A DNA stretch of 64,000 nt, taken from contig NZ_CP066356.1 in assembly GCF_023278185.1 (NCBI RefSeq), positions 3,774,001-3,838,000 on the forward strand, written 5' to 3'. Made by a program: the position numbers and the translations under genes. This document shows, piece by piece, positions 29,476 through 36,388 of the stretch; within the stretch, counting starts at the first letter, position 1; each line of letters begins with the position of its first letter. The notes below the pieces were generated by a model, which made no database searches, was not told the origin of the DNA, and saw nothing but the letters and a program-made list of their open reading frames with translations. The stretch comes from Bradyrhizobium elkanii USDA 76. GTDB lineage: Bacteria; Pseudomonadota; Alphaproteobacteria; Rhizobiales; Xanthobacteraceae.

Positions 29476-29922
29476 ATGGCCATGACAATGACCGGCGAAG
29501 TCCAGCTTGCAGCGCCGCGCCAGGCTGTGTGGGACAAGCTCAACGATCCCGAAGTTTTGAAGGCCTGCATTCCCGGCTGCGAAGAGCTGGAGAAGACCGA
29601 CGAGGGCGGCTTCCGCGCCACCGCCAAGATGAAGGTCGGCCCGGTCTCCGCCCGCTTCAAGGGCAAGGTCACATTGAGCGATCTCGACCCGCCGAACGGC
29701 TACAAGATCTCAGGCGAAGGCGAGGGCGGGGTCGCCGGCTTTGCCAAGGGCGGCGCCACCGTTGGCCTTGCCGACAAGGATGGCGGCACGCTTCTGAGCT
29801 ACAATGTGGAGGCGCAGATCGGCGGCAAGCTCGCCCAGCTCGGCCAGCGCCTGATCAACGGCGCCGCCAAGAAGCTGGCCGATGAATTCTTTGCAAATTT
29901 CGCCAAGGCGGTGCAGGGTTAG
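29476..29922 (+). CDS. coxG: CoxG-type SRPBCC family protein
   Basis: A 148-residue START/SRPBCC-fold protein of the CoxG family: MTGEVQLAAPRQAVWDKLNDPEVLKACIPGCEELEK is diagnostic. CoxG is proposed to help anchor CO dehydrogenase-type molybdenum hydroxylases to the membrane. A GAGGAGG site lies upstream of the ATG. It opens a cox-type cluster that continues with coxS and diverges from pcaB. Confidence 0.88.
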   Translation: MAMTMTGEVQLAAPRQAVWDKLNDPEVLKACIPGCEELEKTDEGGFRATAKMKVGPVSARFKGKVTLSDLDPPNGYKISGEGEGGVAGFAKGGATVGLADKDGGTLLSYNVEAQIGGKLAQLGQRLINGAAKKLADEFFANFAKAVQG

Positions 29923-30090
29923 CTCCGCCTTTCGGCTGGATTATTCAGGTCCGGCCATGTCTTGCCGTTATGTCCTGGATGGGTGGCTCGAAAGGTTGCC
30001 CATCGCGGGGCGCGCCCATATTATGCCGTCTGGAATGATTTAAAACCGCCTGCTTCGCCGATATGCGGTGGCGCAGATAAGAGAGTGCTG

Positions 30091-30576
30091 ATGGCCAAGA
30101 TTTCAATGATCGTGAACGGCAACCCCGTGAACGCGAATGTCGACCCCCGTACCCTTCTGGTCCAGTTTCTGCGCGAAAACCTGCGGCTGACCGGCACCCA
30201 TGTCGGCTGCGACACCTCGCAGTGCGGCGCCTGCGTCGTGCATCTGGACGGCAAGGCGGTGAAGTCCTGCACGACGCTTGCGGTGATGGCGGACGGTCAT
30301 GAGGTCAAGACCATCGAGGGGCTGGCGGCCGATGGCGCGCCGCTGCATCCGATGCAGGAGGCCTTCCGCGAGCATCACGGCCTGCAGTGCGGCTTCTGCA
30401 CGCCGGGCATGATCATGACCGCGGTCGACCTGGTCCATCGCAAGGGCCACGAGCTCTCCGACGAGGTGATCCGCGAGGAGCTGGAAGGCAATCTGTGCCG
30501 CTGCACCGGCTACCAGAATATCGTCGCTTCGATCGCCGCCGGCGCCAAGGCGATGGCGAAGTCGGACTTGGCCTAA
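30091..30576 (+). CDS. coxS: CoxS-type [2Fe-2S] subunit of a molybdenum hydroxylase
   Basis: A 161-residue iron-sulfur subunit with two [2Fe-2S] clusters. The plant-type cluster is in [13 protein letters not shown] with a fourth Cys in VKSC; the second uses CGFCTPGM and [10 protein letters not shown]. All eight cysteines are present. In the xanthine oxidase/CO dehydrogenase family it carries electrons from the molybdopterin subunit (CoxL) to FAD (CoxM). The next gene is coxM, 56 bases away; no coxL lies between, although the three subunits are normally made together. Just after the stop an 18-base stretch nearly repeats the end of coxS. Confidence 0.95.
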
Positions 30577-30632
30577 CAAAGTCGGGCCTCGCGTAATCAG
30601 CAATTCATCGCGACCGCGATCAGGACATTCCA

Positions 30633-31439
30633 ATGTACGAATTCAAATATCACCGTCCCGGCACCGTGCGGCAGGCCGCCAATCTCCTGGTGAAGAACGA
30701 GGACGCCAAGCTGATCGCCGGCGGTCACACGCTGGTGCCGGTCATGAAGCAGCGGCTCGCCAGCCCGCCGCATCTGGTCGACCTCTCCCATATCGAAGGT
30801 CTCGACACCATCGAGATGAAGGGCCGCTCGCTGGTCATCGGGGCCACCGCCAAGCACGCCGAGGTCGCGAACTCCGCGGTCGTGGGCGAGGCGATCCCGG
30901 CGCTGGCCGAACTGGCCGGCCTGATCGGCGATCCCGCCGTGCGCCACCGCGGCACCATCGGCGGCTCGCTCGCCAACAATGACCCGACCGCCGACTATCC
31001 GGCCGCGGTGCTGGCGCTGGGCGCGACCATCGTCACCAACAAGCGCCGCCTCAAGGCCGAGGAGTATTTCCAGGGCCTGTTCTCGACCGCGCTGGAAGCC
31101 GACGAAATCATCACCAAGGTGATGTTCCCGCTGCCGAAGAAGGCGGCCTACGTCAAGTTCCGTAACCAGGCCTCGCGTTATGCGTTGGTCGGCGTGTTCG
31201 TGGCCAAGCGTCCGTCCGACGTGCGCGTCGCGGTCACCGGTGCGGGCTCCGACGGCGTATTCCGCGTCACCGCGTTCGAGGACGCTCTTAAGAAGCGCTT
31301 CTCGCACAAGGTGCTCGACGGCATCGCGGTTTCGGCCGACGGGCTGAACAGCGACCTGCACGGCAGTGCGGAATACCGCGCGCATCTGATCGGCGTTTTG
31401 ACGCGCCGGGCGGTGGAAACCGCGAACGCCAAGGACTAA
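30633..31439 (+). CDS. coxM: CoxM-type FAD-binding subunit of a molybdenum hydroxylase
   Basis: A 268-residue FAD subunit of the xanthine dehydrogenase/CO dehydrogenase family. Both flavin motifs are clear: LIAGGHTLVPVMKQRL near residue 30 and TIGGSLANNDPTADYP near residue 110, plus the C-terminal CO_deh_flav_C domain. It would oxidise the iron-sulfur subunit and pass electrons on. It follows coxS closely and precedes the coxD/coxE maturation genes. Confidence 0.95.
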   Translation: MYEFKYHRPGTVRQAANLLVKNEDAKLIAGGHTLVPVMKQRLASPPHLVDLSHIEGLDTIEMKGRSLVIGATAKHAEVANSAVVGEAIPALAELAGLIGDPAVRHRGTIGGSLANNDPTADYPAAVLALGATIVTNKRRLKAEEYFQGLFSTALEADEIITKVMFPLPKKAAYVKFRNQASRYALVGVFVAKRPSDVRVAVTGAGSDGVFRVTAFEDALKKRFSHKVLDGIAVSADGLNSDLHGSAEYRAHLIGVLTRRAVETANAKD

Positions 31440-31487
31440 GTACCAAGGCGTGACCTTGCTCACTCTCGTTCGAAGACTGGCTGTTCC

Positions 31488-32396
31488 ATGAGTGCATCGG
31501 CGTTACCCACTTCCGTCGATGCGCTCGAGGATCTCCTGACCTCGCGCGGCTATCTCGCCGAACGGTCGCTTGCGACCGTGACCTATCTCGCGCTGCGGAT
31601 GGGCCGGCCGCTGTTCCTCGAAGGCGAGGCCGGCGTCGGCAAGACCGAGATCGCAAAGGTGTTGTCGGCCGCGCTCGGGCGCAAGCTGATCCGCCTGCAA
31701 TGCTATGAAGGCCTCGACGTCGCCTCCGCCGTCTACGAGTGGAGCAGTGCGGCGCAGATGATCGCGATCCGCCTTGCGGAGGCTTCCGGCGACACCGATC
31801 GCGACCAGCTCGCGAGCGACATTTTCGCCGAACGCTTCCTGATCAAGCGGCCGCTGCTGCAGGCGCTCGAGCCCGACGTCGCAGGTCCTCCGGTACTGTT
31901 GATCGACGAGCTCGACCGCGCCGACGAGGCGTTCGAGGCGTATCTGCTGGAAATCCTCAGCGACTTCCAGGTCACGATCCCCGAGCTCGGCACCGTGAAG
32001 GCGCCGGCGCCGCCGATCGTGATCATCACCTCGAACCGCACGCGCGAGATTCACGACGCGCTGAAGCGGCGCTGCCTCTATCACTGGGTGGATTATCCTT
32101 CCGCCGAGCGCGAGCTCGCGATCGTCAAGTCGCGGGTGCCGAACATTTCCGCAAAGCTGTCGCAGCAGGTCGTCCGCTTCGTGCAGGCGCTGCGCAACCA
32201 GGACTTCTACAAGTCGCCGGGCGTTGCCGAGACCATCGACTGGGCCACCGCGCTGTCCGAGCTCGACGCCCGCTCGCTGACGCCGCAGGTGGTCGGCGAC
32301 ACGCTGGGCGCACTCTTGAAGTATCAGGACGACATCGCGCGCATGCAGGGCGATGCGCTGCAGAAGACATTGAAGGAAGCGACGAGCGAGACGTAA
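31488..32396 (+). CDS. coxD: CoxD-type MoxR AAA+ ATPase
   Basis: A 302-residue MoxR-family AAA+ ATPase with Walker A EGEAGVGKTE, Walker B VLLIDELDRADE and a sensor region VIITSNRTREIHDALKRRC. In CO dehydrogenase clusters CoxD helps build the copper-sulfur-molybdenum site with CoxE and CoxF; in relatives it acts as a more general maturation chaperone. It lies 48 bases after coxM. Confidence 0.93.
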   Translation: MSASALPTSVDALEDLLTSRGYLAERSLATVTYLALRMGRPLFLEGEAGVGKTEIAKVLSAALGRKLIRLQCYEGLDVASAVYEWSSAAQMIAIRLAEASGDTDRDQLASDIFAERFLIKRPLLQALEPDVAGPPVLLIDELDRADEAFEAYLLEILSDFQVTIPELGTVKAPAPPIVIITSNRTREIHDALKRRCLYHWVDYPSAERELAIVKSRVPNISAKLSQQVVRFVQALRNQDFYKSPGVAETIDWATALSELDARSLTPQVVGDTLGALLKYQDDIARMQGDALQKTLKEATSET

Positions 32397-32417
32397 GTCG
32401 CGCGTCATAACAACGTC

Positions 32418-32502
32418 CGTCATTCCGGGGCGATGCGTCAGCATCGAACCCGGAATCTCGAGATTCCGGGTTTGCTCGCTTCGCGCGCGCCCCGGAACGA
32501 CG
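32418..32502. repeat. Palindromic repeat inside the cox cluster
   Basis: An 85-base element with CGTCATTCCGGGGCG and CGCCCCGGAACGACG ends and an internal hairpin (GAATCTCGAGATTC). It sits between coxD and coxE, ending 14 bases before the coxE start. Confidence 0.8.
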
Positions 32503-32516
32503 GGAAATGGATCACG

Positions 32517-33719
32517 ATGGCGATCAACCACCTCGCGCCTCCGACCGGCCACATGGCCGACAACGTGATCGGCTTTGCCCGCGCGCTGCGGGCGGCCGGG
32601 CTCCCGGTCGGACCGGGCTCGGTGATCGATGCGCTCGACGCGCTGCAGCTGATCGAGGTTGGGCATCGCGGCGACTTCTACGCCACGCTGGAAGCGATCT
32701 TCGTCAAGCGCCATGAGCACGCGCTGATCTTCCGCCAGGCCTTCGAACTGTTCTTCCGCGCCGCCGAGGAGTGGAAGAGCATGCTGGATTCGGTGCCGCT
32801 GCCCGACCACGCCAGGAAGAAGCCGCCGCCGGCCTCGCGCCGCGTCCAGGAGGCGATGGCCCAGCCGGCGCGGAGCGAGGAGCGGCCGCAGGCCCAGGAG
32901 CAGGAGCTCAAGCTCTCGGTCTCCGACAAGGAGGTGCTGCAGAAGAAGGATTTTGCGCAGATGACCGCGGCGGAGATCGCCGAGGTGACGCGCGAGATCG
33001 CCAAGATGCGGCTGCCGCAGGCCGAGCTCGTGACCCGTCGCTACCAGCCGGATGCGCGGGGCCTCCGGCTCGACATGCGCCGCACCGTGCGCAACTCGCT
33101 GCGCACCGGCGGCGAGATTATCGATATCCGAAAGCTCGGCCGGATCGAGAAGCCGGCGCCGATCGTGGCGCTGCTCGATATCTCGGGCTCGATGAGCGAG
33201 TACACCCGCCTGTTCCTGCACTTCCTGCATGCCATCACCGACGCCCGCAAGCGGGTCTCGGTGTTCCTGTTCGGCACCCGCCTGACCAATGTGACGCGGG
33301 CGTTGCGGGCCCGTGACCCCGACGAGGCGCTGGCGAGCTGCTCGTCCTCGGTCGAGGACTGGGCCGGCGGGACGCGGATCGCGACCTCGCTGCACAGCTT
33401 CAACCAGCTCTGGGCCCGCCGGGTGCTCGGGCAGGGCGCCATCGTCCTCCTTATATCCGATGGACTAGAACGGGAGGCTGATGCCAAACTGGCCTTCGAG
33501 ATGGACCGATTGCACCGTTCCTGCCGCCGCCTGATCTGGCTCAATCCGCTGCTGCGCTACTCCGGCTTCGAGGCCAAGGCGCAGGGCATCAAAATGATGT
33601 TGCCCCACGTTGACGAATTTCGCCCGGTGCATAACTTGACGTCCATCAAGGGCTTGATCGGGGCTCTGTCGTCCCCGCCGCCGGCGCACCACCGCAGCCT
33701 GATCCGCTCTGTAGCCTAA
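32517..33719 (+). CDS. coxE: CoxE-type VWA-domain protein
   Basis: A 400-residue protein with a C-terminal von Willebrand factor A domain carrying an intact MIDAS motif (LLDISGSMSEYTRLFLHFLH) and, further on, GGTRIATSL. The N-terminal half is helical with a charged linker. CoxE works with the MoxR ATPase CoxD in metal-centre maturation. The ATG at 32517 comes just after a palindromic repeat; frame upstream of it is repeat sequence. Confidence 0.93.
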   Translation: MAINHLAPPTGHMADNVIGFARALRAAGLPVGPGSVIDALDALQLIEVGHRGDFYATLEAIFVKRHEHALIFRQAFELFFRAAEEWKSMLDSVPLPDHARKKPPPASRRVQEAMAQPARSEERPQAQEQELKLSVSDKEVLQKKDFAQMTAAEIAEVTREIAKMRLPQAELVTRRYQPDARGLRLDMRRTVRNSLRTGGEIIDIRKLGRIEKPAPIVALLDISGSMSEYTRLFLHFLHAITDARKRVSVFLFGTRLTNVTRALRARDPDEALASCSSSVEDWAGGTRIATSLHSFNQLWARRVLGQGAIVLLISDGLEREADAKLAFEMDRLHRSCRRLIWLNPLLRYSGFEAKAQGIKMMLPHVDEFRPVHNLTSIKGLIGALSSPPPAHHRSLIRSVA

Positions 33720-33747
33720 GAAGCATCCGATTTCACAGGAGGCCGCC

Positions 33748-34071
33748 ATGCTGAACCGCGACGAAGACATCCTGCAGGCCGCCGAGACCTGGCAGAAAGA
33801 GGGCCATGGCGTGGCGCTTGCCACCGTGGTCGAGACCTGGGGCTCGGCGCCGCGCCCGGCCGGCTCGAGCCTCGTCATCAATGACGACGGCACGTTTCTC
33901 GGCTCGGTCTCCGGCGGCTGCGTCGAGGGCGCTGTCGTGACGGAAGCGCTCGACGTGATCGCGAGCGGCCAGCCAAAAATGCTCGAATTCGGCGTCGCCG
34001 ACGAGACGGCCTGGAATGTCGGCCTGTCCTGCGGCGGTACCATCCGCGTGTTCGTCGAGAAGGTCGGTTAG
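33748..34071 (+). CDS. XdhC/CoxI-family protein, N-terminal domain only
   Basis: A 107-residue protein matching the XdhC-CoxI N-terminal domain: AETWQKEGHGVALATVVETWGSAPRPAGSSLVI and GSVSGGCVEGAVV. XdhC-type proteins bind molybdenum cofactor and help sulfurylate it before insertion. Here the family is split: the Rossmann domain is encoded by the next gene, two bases away. An AGGAGG site precedes the ATG. This split form is common in cox-type clusters. Confidence 0.9.
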   Translation: MLNRDEDILQAAETWQKEGHGVALATVVETWGSAPRPAGSSLVINDDGTFLGSVSGGCVEGAVVTEALDVIASGQPKMLEFGVADETAWNVGLSCGGTIRVFVEKVG

Positions 34072-34073
34072 CC

Positions 34074-34787
34074 GTGAAGCTCGAGATCCTGAAAGAACTG
34101 AACGCCGAGCGCGCCGCGCGCCGCCCGGTGATCGTCGTCACCGACACCGCCAATGGCGAGCAGCGCCTGGTCAAGGCCGCGGACATCGCCGCCGATCCGC
34201 TGCGGGCCGAACTCGCAAAGCAGCTGCGGATGGGCAAGAGCGGCAATGTCGAGGTCGGGACCAAGAAACTGTTCCTCAACGTCTACGCGCCGACCGCAAA
34301 GCTCGTGATCATCGGCGCGGTCCATATCAGCCAGGCGCTGGCGCCGCTGGCGCGCTCGCTCGACTATGACGTCACGGTGGTCGATCCGCGCACCGCGTTT
34401 GCGAGCCCGGAGCGCTTCCCCGACGTGCCGCTGGTCGCCGAATGGCCCGACGTCGCGCTGCCGCCGCTCAATGTCGATCACTACACGGCCTTCGTCGCGG
34501 TGACGCACGATCCGAAGATCGACGATCCGGCCCTGCTGCACGCCTTCGACCGCGACTGCTTCTATATCGGCGCGCTCGGCTCGCGGAAGACCCACGCCAA
34601 GCGCGCCGAGCGGCTGCGCGCGCAAGGCGCCAGGGACAGCGACATCGCGCGCATCCACGCGCCGATCGGCCTCGACATCGGCGCGGTGTCGCCGTCGGAG
34701 ATCGCGGTCGCGATCATGGCCGAGATCACCGCGCAGCTGCGCCTGCCTCCGAAAGAAAACTCCAAGCAAAAAGAAGAAGCGGCATGA
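34074..34787 (+). CDS. XdhC-family protein, Rossmann domain
   Basis: A 237-residue protein starting at a GTG two bases after the preceding stop. The C-terminal XdhC Rossmann domain is seen in KLVIIGAVHISQALAPLARSL, VVDPRTAFASPERFP, FVAVTHDPKIDDPAL and YIGALGSRKTHAKRAERL. Together with the upstream gene it makes a complete XdhC. Its stop overlaps the next start (ATGA). Confidence 0.9.
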   Translation: MKLEILKELNAERAARRPVIVVTDTANGEQRLVKAADIAADPLRAELAKQLRMGKSGNVEVGTKKLFLNVYAPTAKLVIIGAVHISQALAPLARSLDYDVTVVDPRTAFASPERFPDVPLVAEWPDVALPPLNVDHYTAFVAVTHDPKIDDPALLHAFDRDCFYIGALGSRKTHAKRAERLRAQGARDSDIARIHAPIGLDIGAVSPSEIAVAIMAEITAQLRLPPKENSKQKEEAA

Positions 34788-36388
34788 AATTCGGTCCCGC
34801 CAGTCCGGCCGACGCGATTGGCGGCGTCACCGTTCACACCCTCCGCCAGGGCGCGCTGGTGCTCAAAAAGGGCACCACGATCGGCCCCGCCGAGGTCGAG
34901 GCGCTGACCAAGGCCGGCGTCGACGAGATCGTCGTGGTGCGGCTCGACGAGGGCGACGTCTCCGAGGACGCCGCGGCCGCCAGCATCGCGCAGGCGGTGG
35001 CGGGCGAGGGCGTCAATGTCGAGCGCGCCTTCACCGGCCGCGCCAACCTGTTCGCGGCGCGCCCCGGCGTGCTGGTGATCGATCGCGCCGCGGTCGACCG
35101 CATCAACGACGTCGACGAGGCCATCACCTTCGCAACCCTTGCCGCGTTCAAGCCGGTGGTCGAAGGCGAGATGATCGCGACCGTCAAGCTGATCCCGTTC
35201 GGCGTCGAGGGGCGCTTACGCGATGCCGCCGTTGCGGTCGCCGGTAAGGATACGCTGCGGATCGCGCCCTATGTGATCCGGAAGGTCGGCGTGGTCTCGA
35301 CGCTGCTGCCGGGCCTCGCGCCGAAGGTGATCGACAAGACGCTGCGCGTCACCGCCGAGCGGCTCGCGCCGGCCGGCGCCACCATCATCGCCGAGCGCCG
35401 CGTGCCGCATGACGAAACCGTGCTCGCCGCCTCGATCAAGGAATTGCTCGGGCTGGGCGCCGAGCTCGTCATCGTGTTCGGGGCGTCCGCGATCGCCGAC
35501 CGCCGCGACGTGATTCCGGCTGCGATCACCGAGATCGGCGGCGCGGTCGAGCATTTCGGCATGCCGGTCGATCCGGGCAATCTGCTGCTGATCGGCAGCG
35601 CCGGCGGCGTGCCGGTGCTTGGCGCGCCGGGCTGCGCGCGCTCGCCGGTCGAGAACGGCTTCGACTGGGTCTTGATGCGGCTGCTCGCCGGCATCAAGGT
35701 GAAGCGGTCGGATCTCACCGGTATGGGCGTCGGGGGACTTCTGATGGAGATCGTGACGCGGCCGCAGCCGCGCACCGTGCCGGACACCGAAGGCAACCGC
35801 AACGTCGCCGCGATCGTGCTCGCCGCCGGCCGCTCGACCCGGATGGGTGGCCCGAACAAGCTGCTCGCCGAGCTCGACGGCAAGAAGCTCGCGCGCATCG
35901 TCGCCGAGCAGGCGCTGGCGTCGAAGGCCTCCGAGGTGATCGTTGTCACCGGGCATCAGGCCGAACTGGTCGAGCAGGCGCTCGATGGCCTCAAGGTCAA
36001 GTTCGTCCGCAACCCGGATTTCGCGGGCGGCCTCGCCAGTTCGGTGAAGGCGGGCATTGCGGCGGTGTCCGACAGCGCCGATGGCGCGATCGTCTGCCTC
36101 GGCGACATGCCGCTGATCGATGCGAAGCTGATCGACCGCCTGATCGAGACCTTCGCGCCGGACCGCGGCCATCTGATCGCGGTCCCGGTCAGCGAGGGCC
36201 GCCGCGGCAATCCGGTGCTGTGGTCGCGGCGCTTCTTCAAGGAACTGATGACGCTCGACGGCGACATCGGCGCCCGTCACTTGATCACCAAGCATGCCGA
36301 GGTGGTCGCCGAGGTCCCGGTCGAAGGCGACAGCGCCTTCCTCGACATCGACACGCCGCAGGCGCTGGAAGCTGCGCGGCGGGGCTAA
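34784..36388 (+). CDS. Fused MoeA-like molybdopterin-binding and MobA-like nucleotidyltransferase protein
   Basis: A 534-residue two-domain protein. Residues about 1-335 resemble a molybdopterin-binding (MoeA/CinA-like) domain with VFGASAIADRRDVIPAAI and AGGVPVLGAPGCARSPVENGFDW. Residues about 345-530 form an NTP-transferase like MobA/MocA: IVLAAGRSTRMGGPNKLL, a VTGHQAELVEQAL strand, CLGDMPLID with the metal-binding Asp, and RGNPVLWSRR. MocA adds CMP to molybdopterin to give the cytosine dinucleotide cofactor used by CoxL-type enzymes. So this gene probably finishes the cofactor for the cluster's missing catalytic subunit. Confidence 0.9.
   Translation: MKFGPASPADAIGGVTVHTLRQGALVLKKGTTIGPAEVEALTKAGVDEIVVVRLDEGDVSEDAAAASIAQAVAGEGVNVERAFTGRANLFAARPGVLVIDRAAVDRINDVDEAITFATLAAFKPVVEGEMIATVKLIPFGVEGRLRDAAVAVAGKDTLRIAPYVIRKVGVVSTLLPGLAPKVIDKTLRVTAERLAPAGATIIAERRVPHDETVLAASIKELLGLGAELVIVFGASAIADRRDVIPAAITEIGGAVEHFGMPVDPGNLLLIGSAGGVPVLGAPGCARSPVENGFDWVLMRLLAGIKVKRSDLTGMGVGGLLMEIVTRPQPRTVPDTEGNRNVAAIVLAAGRSTRMGGPNKLLAELDGKKLARIVAEQALASKASEVIVVTGHQAELVEQALDGLKVKFVRNPDFAGGLASSVKAGIAAVSDSADGAIVCLGDMPLIDAKLIDRLIETFAPDRGHLIAVPVSEGRRGNPVLWSRRFFKELMTLDGDIGARHLITKHAEVVAEVPVEGDSAFLDIDTPQALEAARRG

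Follow-up and report, generated by a model that had tools for sequence, protein, structure and literature searches.

The window, by which is meant the whole stretch of 64,000 nucleotides that was analysed (G000:C1:3774001-3838000), comes from the 9.5 Mb genome of Bradyrhizobium elkanii USDA 76 and holds, at 29476-36388, eight genes that all run in one direction on the forward strand. The first is a coxG-like gene (29476..29922; Pfam COXG, PF06240, E 3e-39), followed by coxS, encoding the small subunit with two [2Fe-2S] domains (30091..30576; PF00111 and PF01799), and coxM, encoding the FAD-binding medium subunit (30633..31439; PF00941 and PF03450, CO_deh_flav_C). Next come a coxD-like gene for a MoxR-type AAA ATPase (31488..32396; PF07728), which scores 273 of 475 bits against the MadB family model, under the cut-off, and a coxE-like gene for a VWA protein (32511..33719; PF05762, E 2e-78). 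Two XdhC-type genes, one for an XdhC/CoxI N-terminal domain protein (33748..34071; PF02625) and one for an XdhC Rossmann domain protein (34074..34787; PF13478), precede the last gene (34784..36388), a fusion of a MoeA/MoCF-like part with a MocA-type molybdopterin cytidylyltransferase. The fusion matches NTP_transf_3 at E 2e-42 and MoCF_biosynth only weakly (E 4e-5, under the cut-off), and reaches 165 of 186 bits with TIGR03310, again under the cut-off. Domain searches confirmed the gene order given in the original prediction, and its reading of the spacing also held: coxS and coxM are separated by an unstranded junction of 56 bases (30577..30632), with no gene for the large subunit (L, coxL) between them. 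The junction, which is the coxL site in relatives outside the core clade, includes, at 30579-30596, an imperfect 18-base copy of the end of coxS.

What kind of operon is this? The S protein has both Fer2 domains and eight cysteines (C40, C45, C48, C60, C100, C103, C136 and C138), all of them invariant in an alignment of four S sequences, and M has its FAD-binding and CO_deh_flav_C domains, as expected of form II. There is no L within the operon between S and M, and L genes with the AYRGAGR loop are found elsewhere in the genome (o40, o41 and o43, described below). AYRGAGR is the active-site motif of form II L, and AYxCSFR is that of the form I aerobic CO dehydrogenase; the three L genes have the former and not the latter, which sets them apart from form I. 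The form II operon on the Microvirga ossetica plasmid (NZ_CP016618.1) has the same gene set in the same coxG-S-(L)-M-MoxR-VWA order, with identities to the window of 71% for S, 65% for M, 73% for coxD and 58% for coxE. However, it has L between S and M, where the window has none, and its xdhC and molybdopterin genes lie upstream and divergent, whereas those of the window are downstream and in the same direction. Aerobic CO dehydrogenase (1n5w, 1ffu, 8uem) has homologous S, M and L chains, but, unlike in that enzyme, L is here unlinked to S-M. The best solved chains are 4zoh_C and 8uem_C for coxS and 1n5w_C for coxM, with 4zoh_B scoring close to the best; 4zoh, whose chain C is the best solved relative of the window's S, is a three-subunit oxidoreductase. 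The top NCBIfam matches are the glyceraldehyde dehydrogenase models NF041019 and NF041020, with scores (218 of 290 and 223 of 350) under the curated cut-offs. We take 4zoh and these two models to be of Sulfolobus origin. From these comparisons, the cluster is probably a form II (coxG-S-L-M-D-E) molybdenum hydroxylase operon minus its own L, with an S-M pair that would serve L encoded elsewhere.

The original prediction held that comparable Bradyrhizobium clusters keep coxL, which implied that its loss was specific to this strain. Alignment with related Bradyrhizobium gave another picture, since the relatives show the same coxS-coxM adjacency and not coxL. With 29476-31439 as the query, the S-M junction is crossed by a single DNA match, with no large insert, in 98 of 98 genus genomes among the matches listed (the genome under study included; 20 of them are listed with one contig). 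S and M are also adjacent, with L absent from the locus, in 80 of 80 named relatives; these are the best 80 of at least 582, all near the Nitrobacter query and mostly Bradyrhizobium, with a locus of at most 6 kb on each side. They include Nitrobacter winogradskyi NBRC 14297, Nitrobacter sp. Nb-311A, Rhodopseudomonas pentothenatexigens and Afipia massiliensis. The genus-wide adjacency rules out a recent deletion of coxL in this strain, a reading that would make the 18-base repeat its scar and that now deserves hardly any credence. The same junction, together with the lack of N bases in the S-M interval of every locus checked (from three fetched sets), refutes an assembly error, which has nothing in its favor except the absent gene and is vanishingly improbable.

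The repeat itself is real, as the original prediction had it. It matches the coxS end at 14 of 18 positions, a level reached in a fraction of only 0.00035 of 20,000 mononucleotide shuffles of the junction, and this improbability by chance is what speaks for a scar. On the other hand, a match of at least 13/18 occurs in just three of 80 junctions examined (that of the window and those of L063 and of L010, the closest relative), too few for a scar of coxL loss, and that origin was rejected. Because the repeat is so rare, it does not date to the loss; it is a recent local duplication, far younger than the loss of coxL. Short tandem duplications of the coxS 3' end seem recurrent in the S-M junction in several Bradyrhizobium lineages (L009, L010, L023, L024 and L063); in L023 and L024, offset copies of the coxS end were recognised by eye.

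The history of the missing gene can be read from more distant relatives. The order is coxG-S-L-M-MoxR-VWA on the Microvirga plasmid and S-L-M on a Sinorhizobium megaplasmid. Within the family (149 genomes, among the matches listed), 120 M rows were sorted by distance to S: 62 are adjacent, 51 have a gap of 2.4-3.0 kb and 7 are unresolved. These rows were chosen by score as being of the window type, without second hits and some of the divergent rows, and were set against the higher-scoring S rows; 31 of the 149 genomes therefore have "none" as their operon state. Some of the 31, such as G147 and G172, where S lies beside an L-type match, look intact with a divergent M. All 39 of the gap loci that were fetched hold a Microvirga-like L (71-79% identical), and their neighbours are the same wherever the locus extends that far. 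In two family loci (L204 and L205, from G203 and G164), coxM has another coxM-like gene in tandem behind it, and neither coxD nor coxE was found at the locus; in one intact operon (L242, from G237), a stop interrupts the coxM match at position 61 of 256.

Since Microvirga and the more remote members of the family share this gene order but carry coxL between S and M, coxL was lost from this site. Loss is likelier than repeated gain, because L has the same position in all of them, the operon L form one clade (support 98, starred) and the outgroups have L. A tree of S plus M, which like all our trees is a quick one with SH-aLRT support only, had 78 rows (15 of the 30 core loci, all 60 fetched family loci and 3 references), 36 without L and 42 with it. 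It requires no fewer than 11 state changes, of which starred branches force 9; when states are shuffled, the mean is 26. One old loss spans the entire clade of Bradyrhizobium, Nitrobacter and relatives (100, starred), and several close relatives of unlike state are well supported: G228 with G212, G111 with G101, and the group of G105, G148, G173, G193 and G211 (each 99, starred). Old and repeated loss of the operon L is supported by these data. The family gap loci, Microvirga and the S plus M tree here agree with the original prediction, which had coxL gone, by loss, from the spot where related clusters carry it.

Why, then, have S and M been kept? Compared with six congeners, the window's coxS has a dN/dS of 0.04-0.08 and its coxM one of 0.10-0.15, and both frames are open in B. 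elkanii USDA 76. All eight cluster genes are found in 75 of the 80 named loci (the last hit being split in two in one of them), and the remaining five loci are short, being truncated at contig ends. In some relatives whose S and M are adjacent, one stop is flagged in the S match (G113, G155 and G189, for example) or the M match (for example G114 and G228); in the split loci that were checked, a set that includes G114 and G228 and excludes G113, G155 and G189, no stop lies within the tblastn match of S or M. By these measures, S and M remain under purifying selection and in use. The locus did not qualify as a decayed operon, given a dN/dS of 0.04-0.15 over the two genes and the open frames, and that reading was dropped.

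The L genes of the same genome offer a possible use. In total, there are 18 S, 10 M and 20 L places (the latter being 28 MoCoBD_2 matches merged by hand). L adjoins 17 of the 18 S, and the pair in the window is the sole S-M pair without L. When the 13 kb surrounding each L were read, 17 of the L proved to have an S adjoining or fused, and three to have none: o41 (L041; G000:C1:3519329-3521635), o43 (L043; 2444585-2446906) and o40 (L040; 5493007-5495382), each without S or M nearby. The closest S to any of the three is more than 100 kb off in the genome-wide S list. They share 43-46% identity with one another, are under purifying selection (dN/dS of 0.11-0.30), and each carries AYRGAGR in the active-site loop together with the conserved glutamate of a GxGE stretch. 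No S or M was found within 1.5 kb at any of 30 o41, 30 o43 or 30 o40 family loci, nor beside o41 at 20 further loci fetched, some of them from intact-operon genomes. In the L tree (a subset of 87 L sequences), the o40, o41 and o43 types each form one clade (100, starred), and the clade of operon L joins the type found at 8.76 Mb (100, starred), with all three outside; they are therefore old paralogues and not the lost gene. This placement rejects the idea that o41 is the operon's own coxL, relocated, and 35 of 50 intact-operon genomes carry o41 as well, among the matches listed. Such a move would fit the two genomes, discussed next, in which the o41 type is the sole L, but it is very improbable. 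Two other L arrangements were noted in passing. At about 2.06 Mb in the same genome, a cox-like cluster (M, S, L, D and E) has its L spread over two frames around a proline-rich stretch (L045:5799-8341), either a frameshift or a two-part L; in G211, an o40-type unlinked L and an intact S-L-M operon stand tail to tail, 0.7 kb apart (L218).

A genome-wide Pfam search of two genomes of the Nitrobacter genus group, G157 and G196, gives a single S, a single M and a single L in each, with S and M adjacent. The sole L is of the o41 type; it is 1.2 Mb away from S-M in G157, a single contig of 3,402,093 bases, and on another contig in G196. Three more genomes (G116, G213 and G183) have one extra linked set each and a fourth (G178) has two; an S-M pair and an unlinked o41, one of each, recur in all four. 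The original prediction had concluded that S and M lack an electron donor, and the unlinked L of these 1:1:1 genomes speaks against that; it had also named the same adjacency in relatives, combined with an intact large subunit elsewhere, as counting against it, and both were found. As a whole, it stands in part: coxL is lost from its usual place, while the strain event, the scar and the electron dead end are not borne out.

More broadly, 61 of 62 genomes with adjacent S-M have o41 or o40, among the matches listed. The remaining genome, G127, carries a different L (C2:26641; 45% identity to o40), and a genome-wide search found no S on that contig. (L types were scored as present by natural score gaps, and two partial o41, in G184 and G222, were counted as present. 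S was searched genome-wide by family in G000, G127, G100, G157, G196, G116, G213, G178 and G183; elsewhere, "unlinked" means that the flanks were read.) However, 46 of 50 intact-operon genomes also have o41 or o40, among the matches listed, so presence alone does not prove a link; it does suggest that the unlinked L preceded the loss. G100 has two o41 and one o40 and no window-type M at E 1e-60 among the matches listed, and o41 and o40 are therefore perhaps able to live with another S-M. In a mirror-tree comparison of 14 genomes, the partial r with o41 was 0.71 for S-M and nearly as high, 0.65, for coxD, which is not thought to be a partner in the complex, so that the comparison does not tell partners from other genes. 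We know of no electron path for an L of the molybdenum hydroxylase family without S and M, and assembly in trans is therefore the simplest reading. Judging from sequence, we consider it likely that the S-M pair works with L supplied in trans, probably with more than one, in a physical assembly that we infer.

In such a system, S, M and the maturation genes would be kept since they serve L from other chromosomal loci. The molybdenum cofactor and the substrate would be bound by L, which would join S, with its two iron-sulfur clusters, and M, with its FAD, after translation, and electrons would pass from L to S to M. The main partner of S-M would be o41, and o43 and o40 probably use the same pair. 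Taken to its full extent, this would be a modular enzyme, in which one S-M serves three L with a different substrate each, encoded at three distant loci, and in which prior use in trans made the operon L dispensable, so that it was lost about ten times; we put this forward tentatively, as having slightly less than an even chance of being right.

Alternatively, o41 could be the sole trans partner, with o40 and o43 using the S-M of the intact S-L-M operon at 8.76 Mb or other subunits. That operon is indeed present in B. elkanii USDA 76 (its M is 58% and its S 65% identical to those of the window), and the 1:1:1 genomes have just an o41-type L. Nevertheless, the clades of o40, o41 and o43 form one group, albeit at a support of just 90, not starred, and seven genomes (G105, G108 and G118 among them) have adjacent S-M and o40 with no o41-type row among the matches listed; a restriction to o41 seems unlikely, although it merits serious consideration. 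S and M could also have been repurposed without any L, for example as a flavin-linked electron carrier, and the lack of a linked L and the retention of S-M across many genera would suit such a role. Yet the operon has retained its molybdenum-cofactor maturation genes, as the 75 complete loci attest, and the sole L of G157 and G196 would be left without S or M, making this use improbable. Service to L in trans is the reading that we prefer.

As a rule, cox-type enzymes are annotated and counted one operon at a time. Looking beside S and M does not reveal the catalytic subunit of this conserved enzyme in Bradyrhizobium, Nitrobacter, Rhodopseudomonas and Afipia, and in B. elkanii USDA 76 three L genes look like orphans. 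If it is true that one electron module serves several L, a single added gene could widen the substrate range. Since Nitrobacter winogradskyi has just one each of S, M and L, it would make a clean test case. A literature search found no paper on an S-M pair without L or shared by several L, which is no proof of absence from print.

In one study, the coxS and coxM genes bll3376 and bll3377, which may correspond to those of this cluster, are listed as up-regulated in a nasT mutant of Bradyrhizobium diazoefficiens (PMC6759348). As to what the enzyme might act upon, the motif suggests that the substrate of the candidate L would not be CO. The surroundings of o41 provide a further lead. A gene for an AcrB-type RND pump lies upstream of o41 in 16 of the 20 further (non-core) o41 loci (L254-L269), accompanied by an HlyD-type gene in 15, and where MurJ is also found the order is MurJ-HlyD-RND-o41. 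The pump hints that the substrate could be hydrophobic or toxic. In G157, G196, G135 and B. elkanii USDA 76 itself, MurJ adjoins o41 and no pump gene was found nearby; in G110, neither a pump gene nor MurJ was found near o41. A cytochrome c' gene comes after o41 in L258 and L265.
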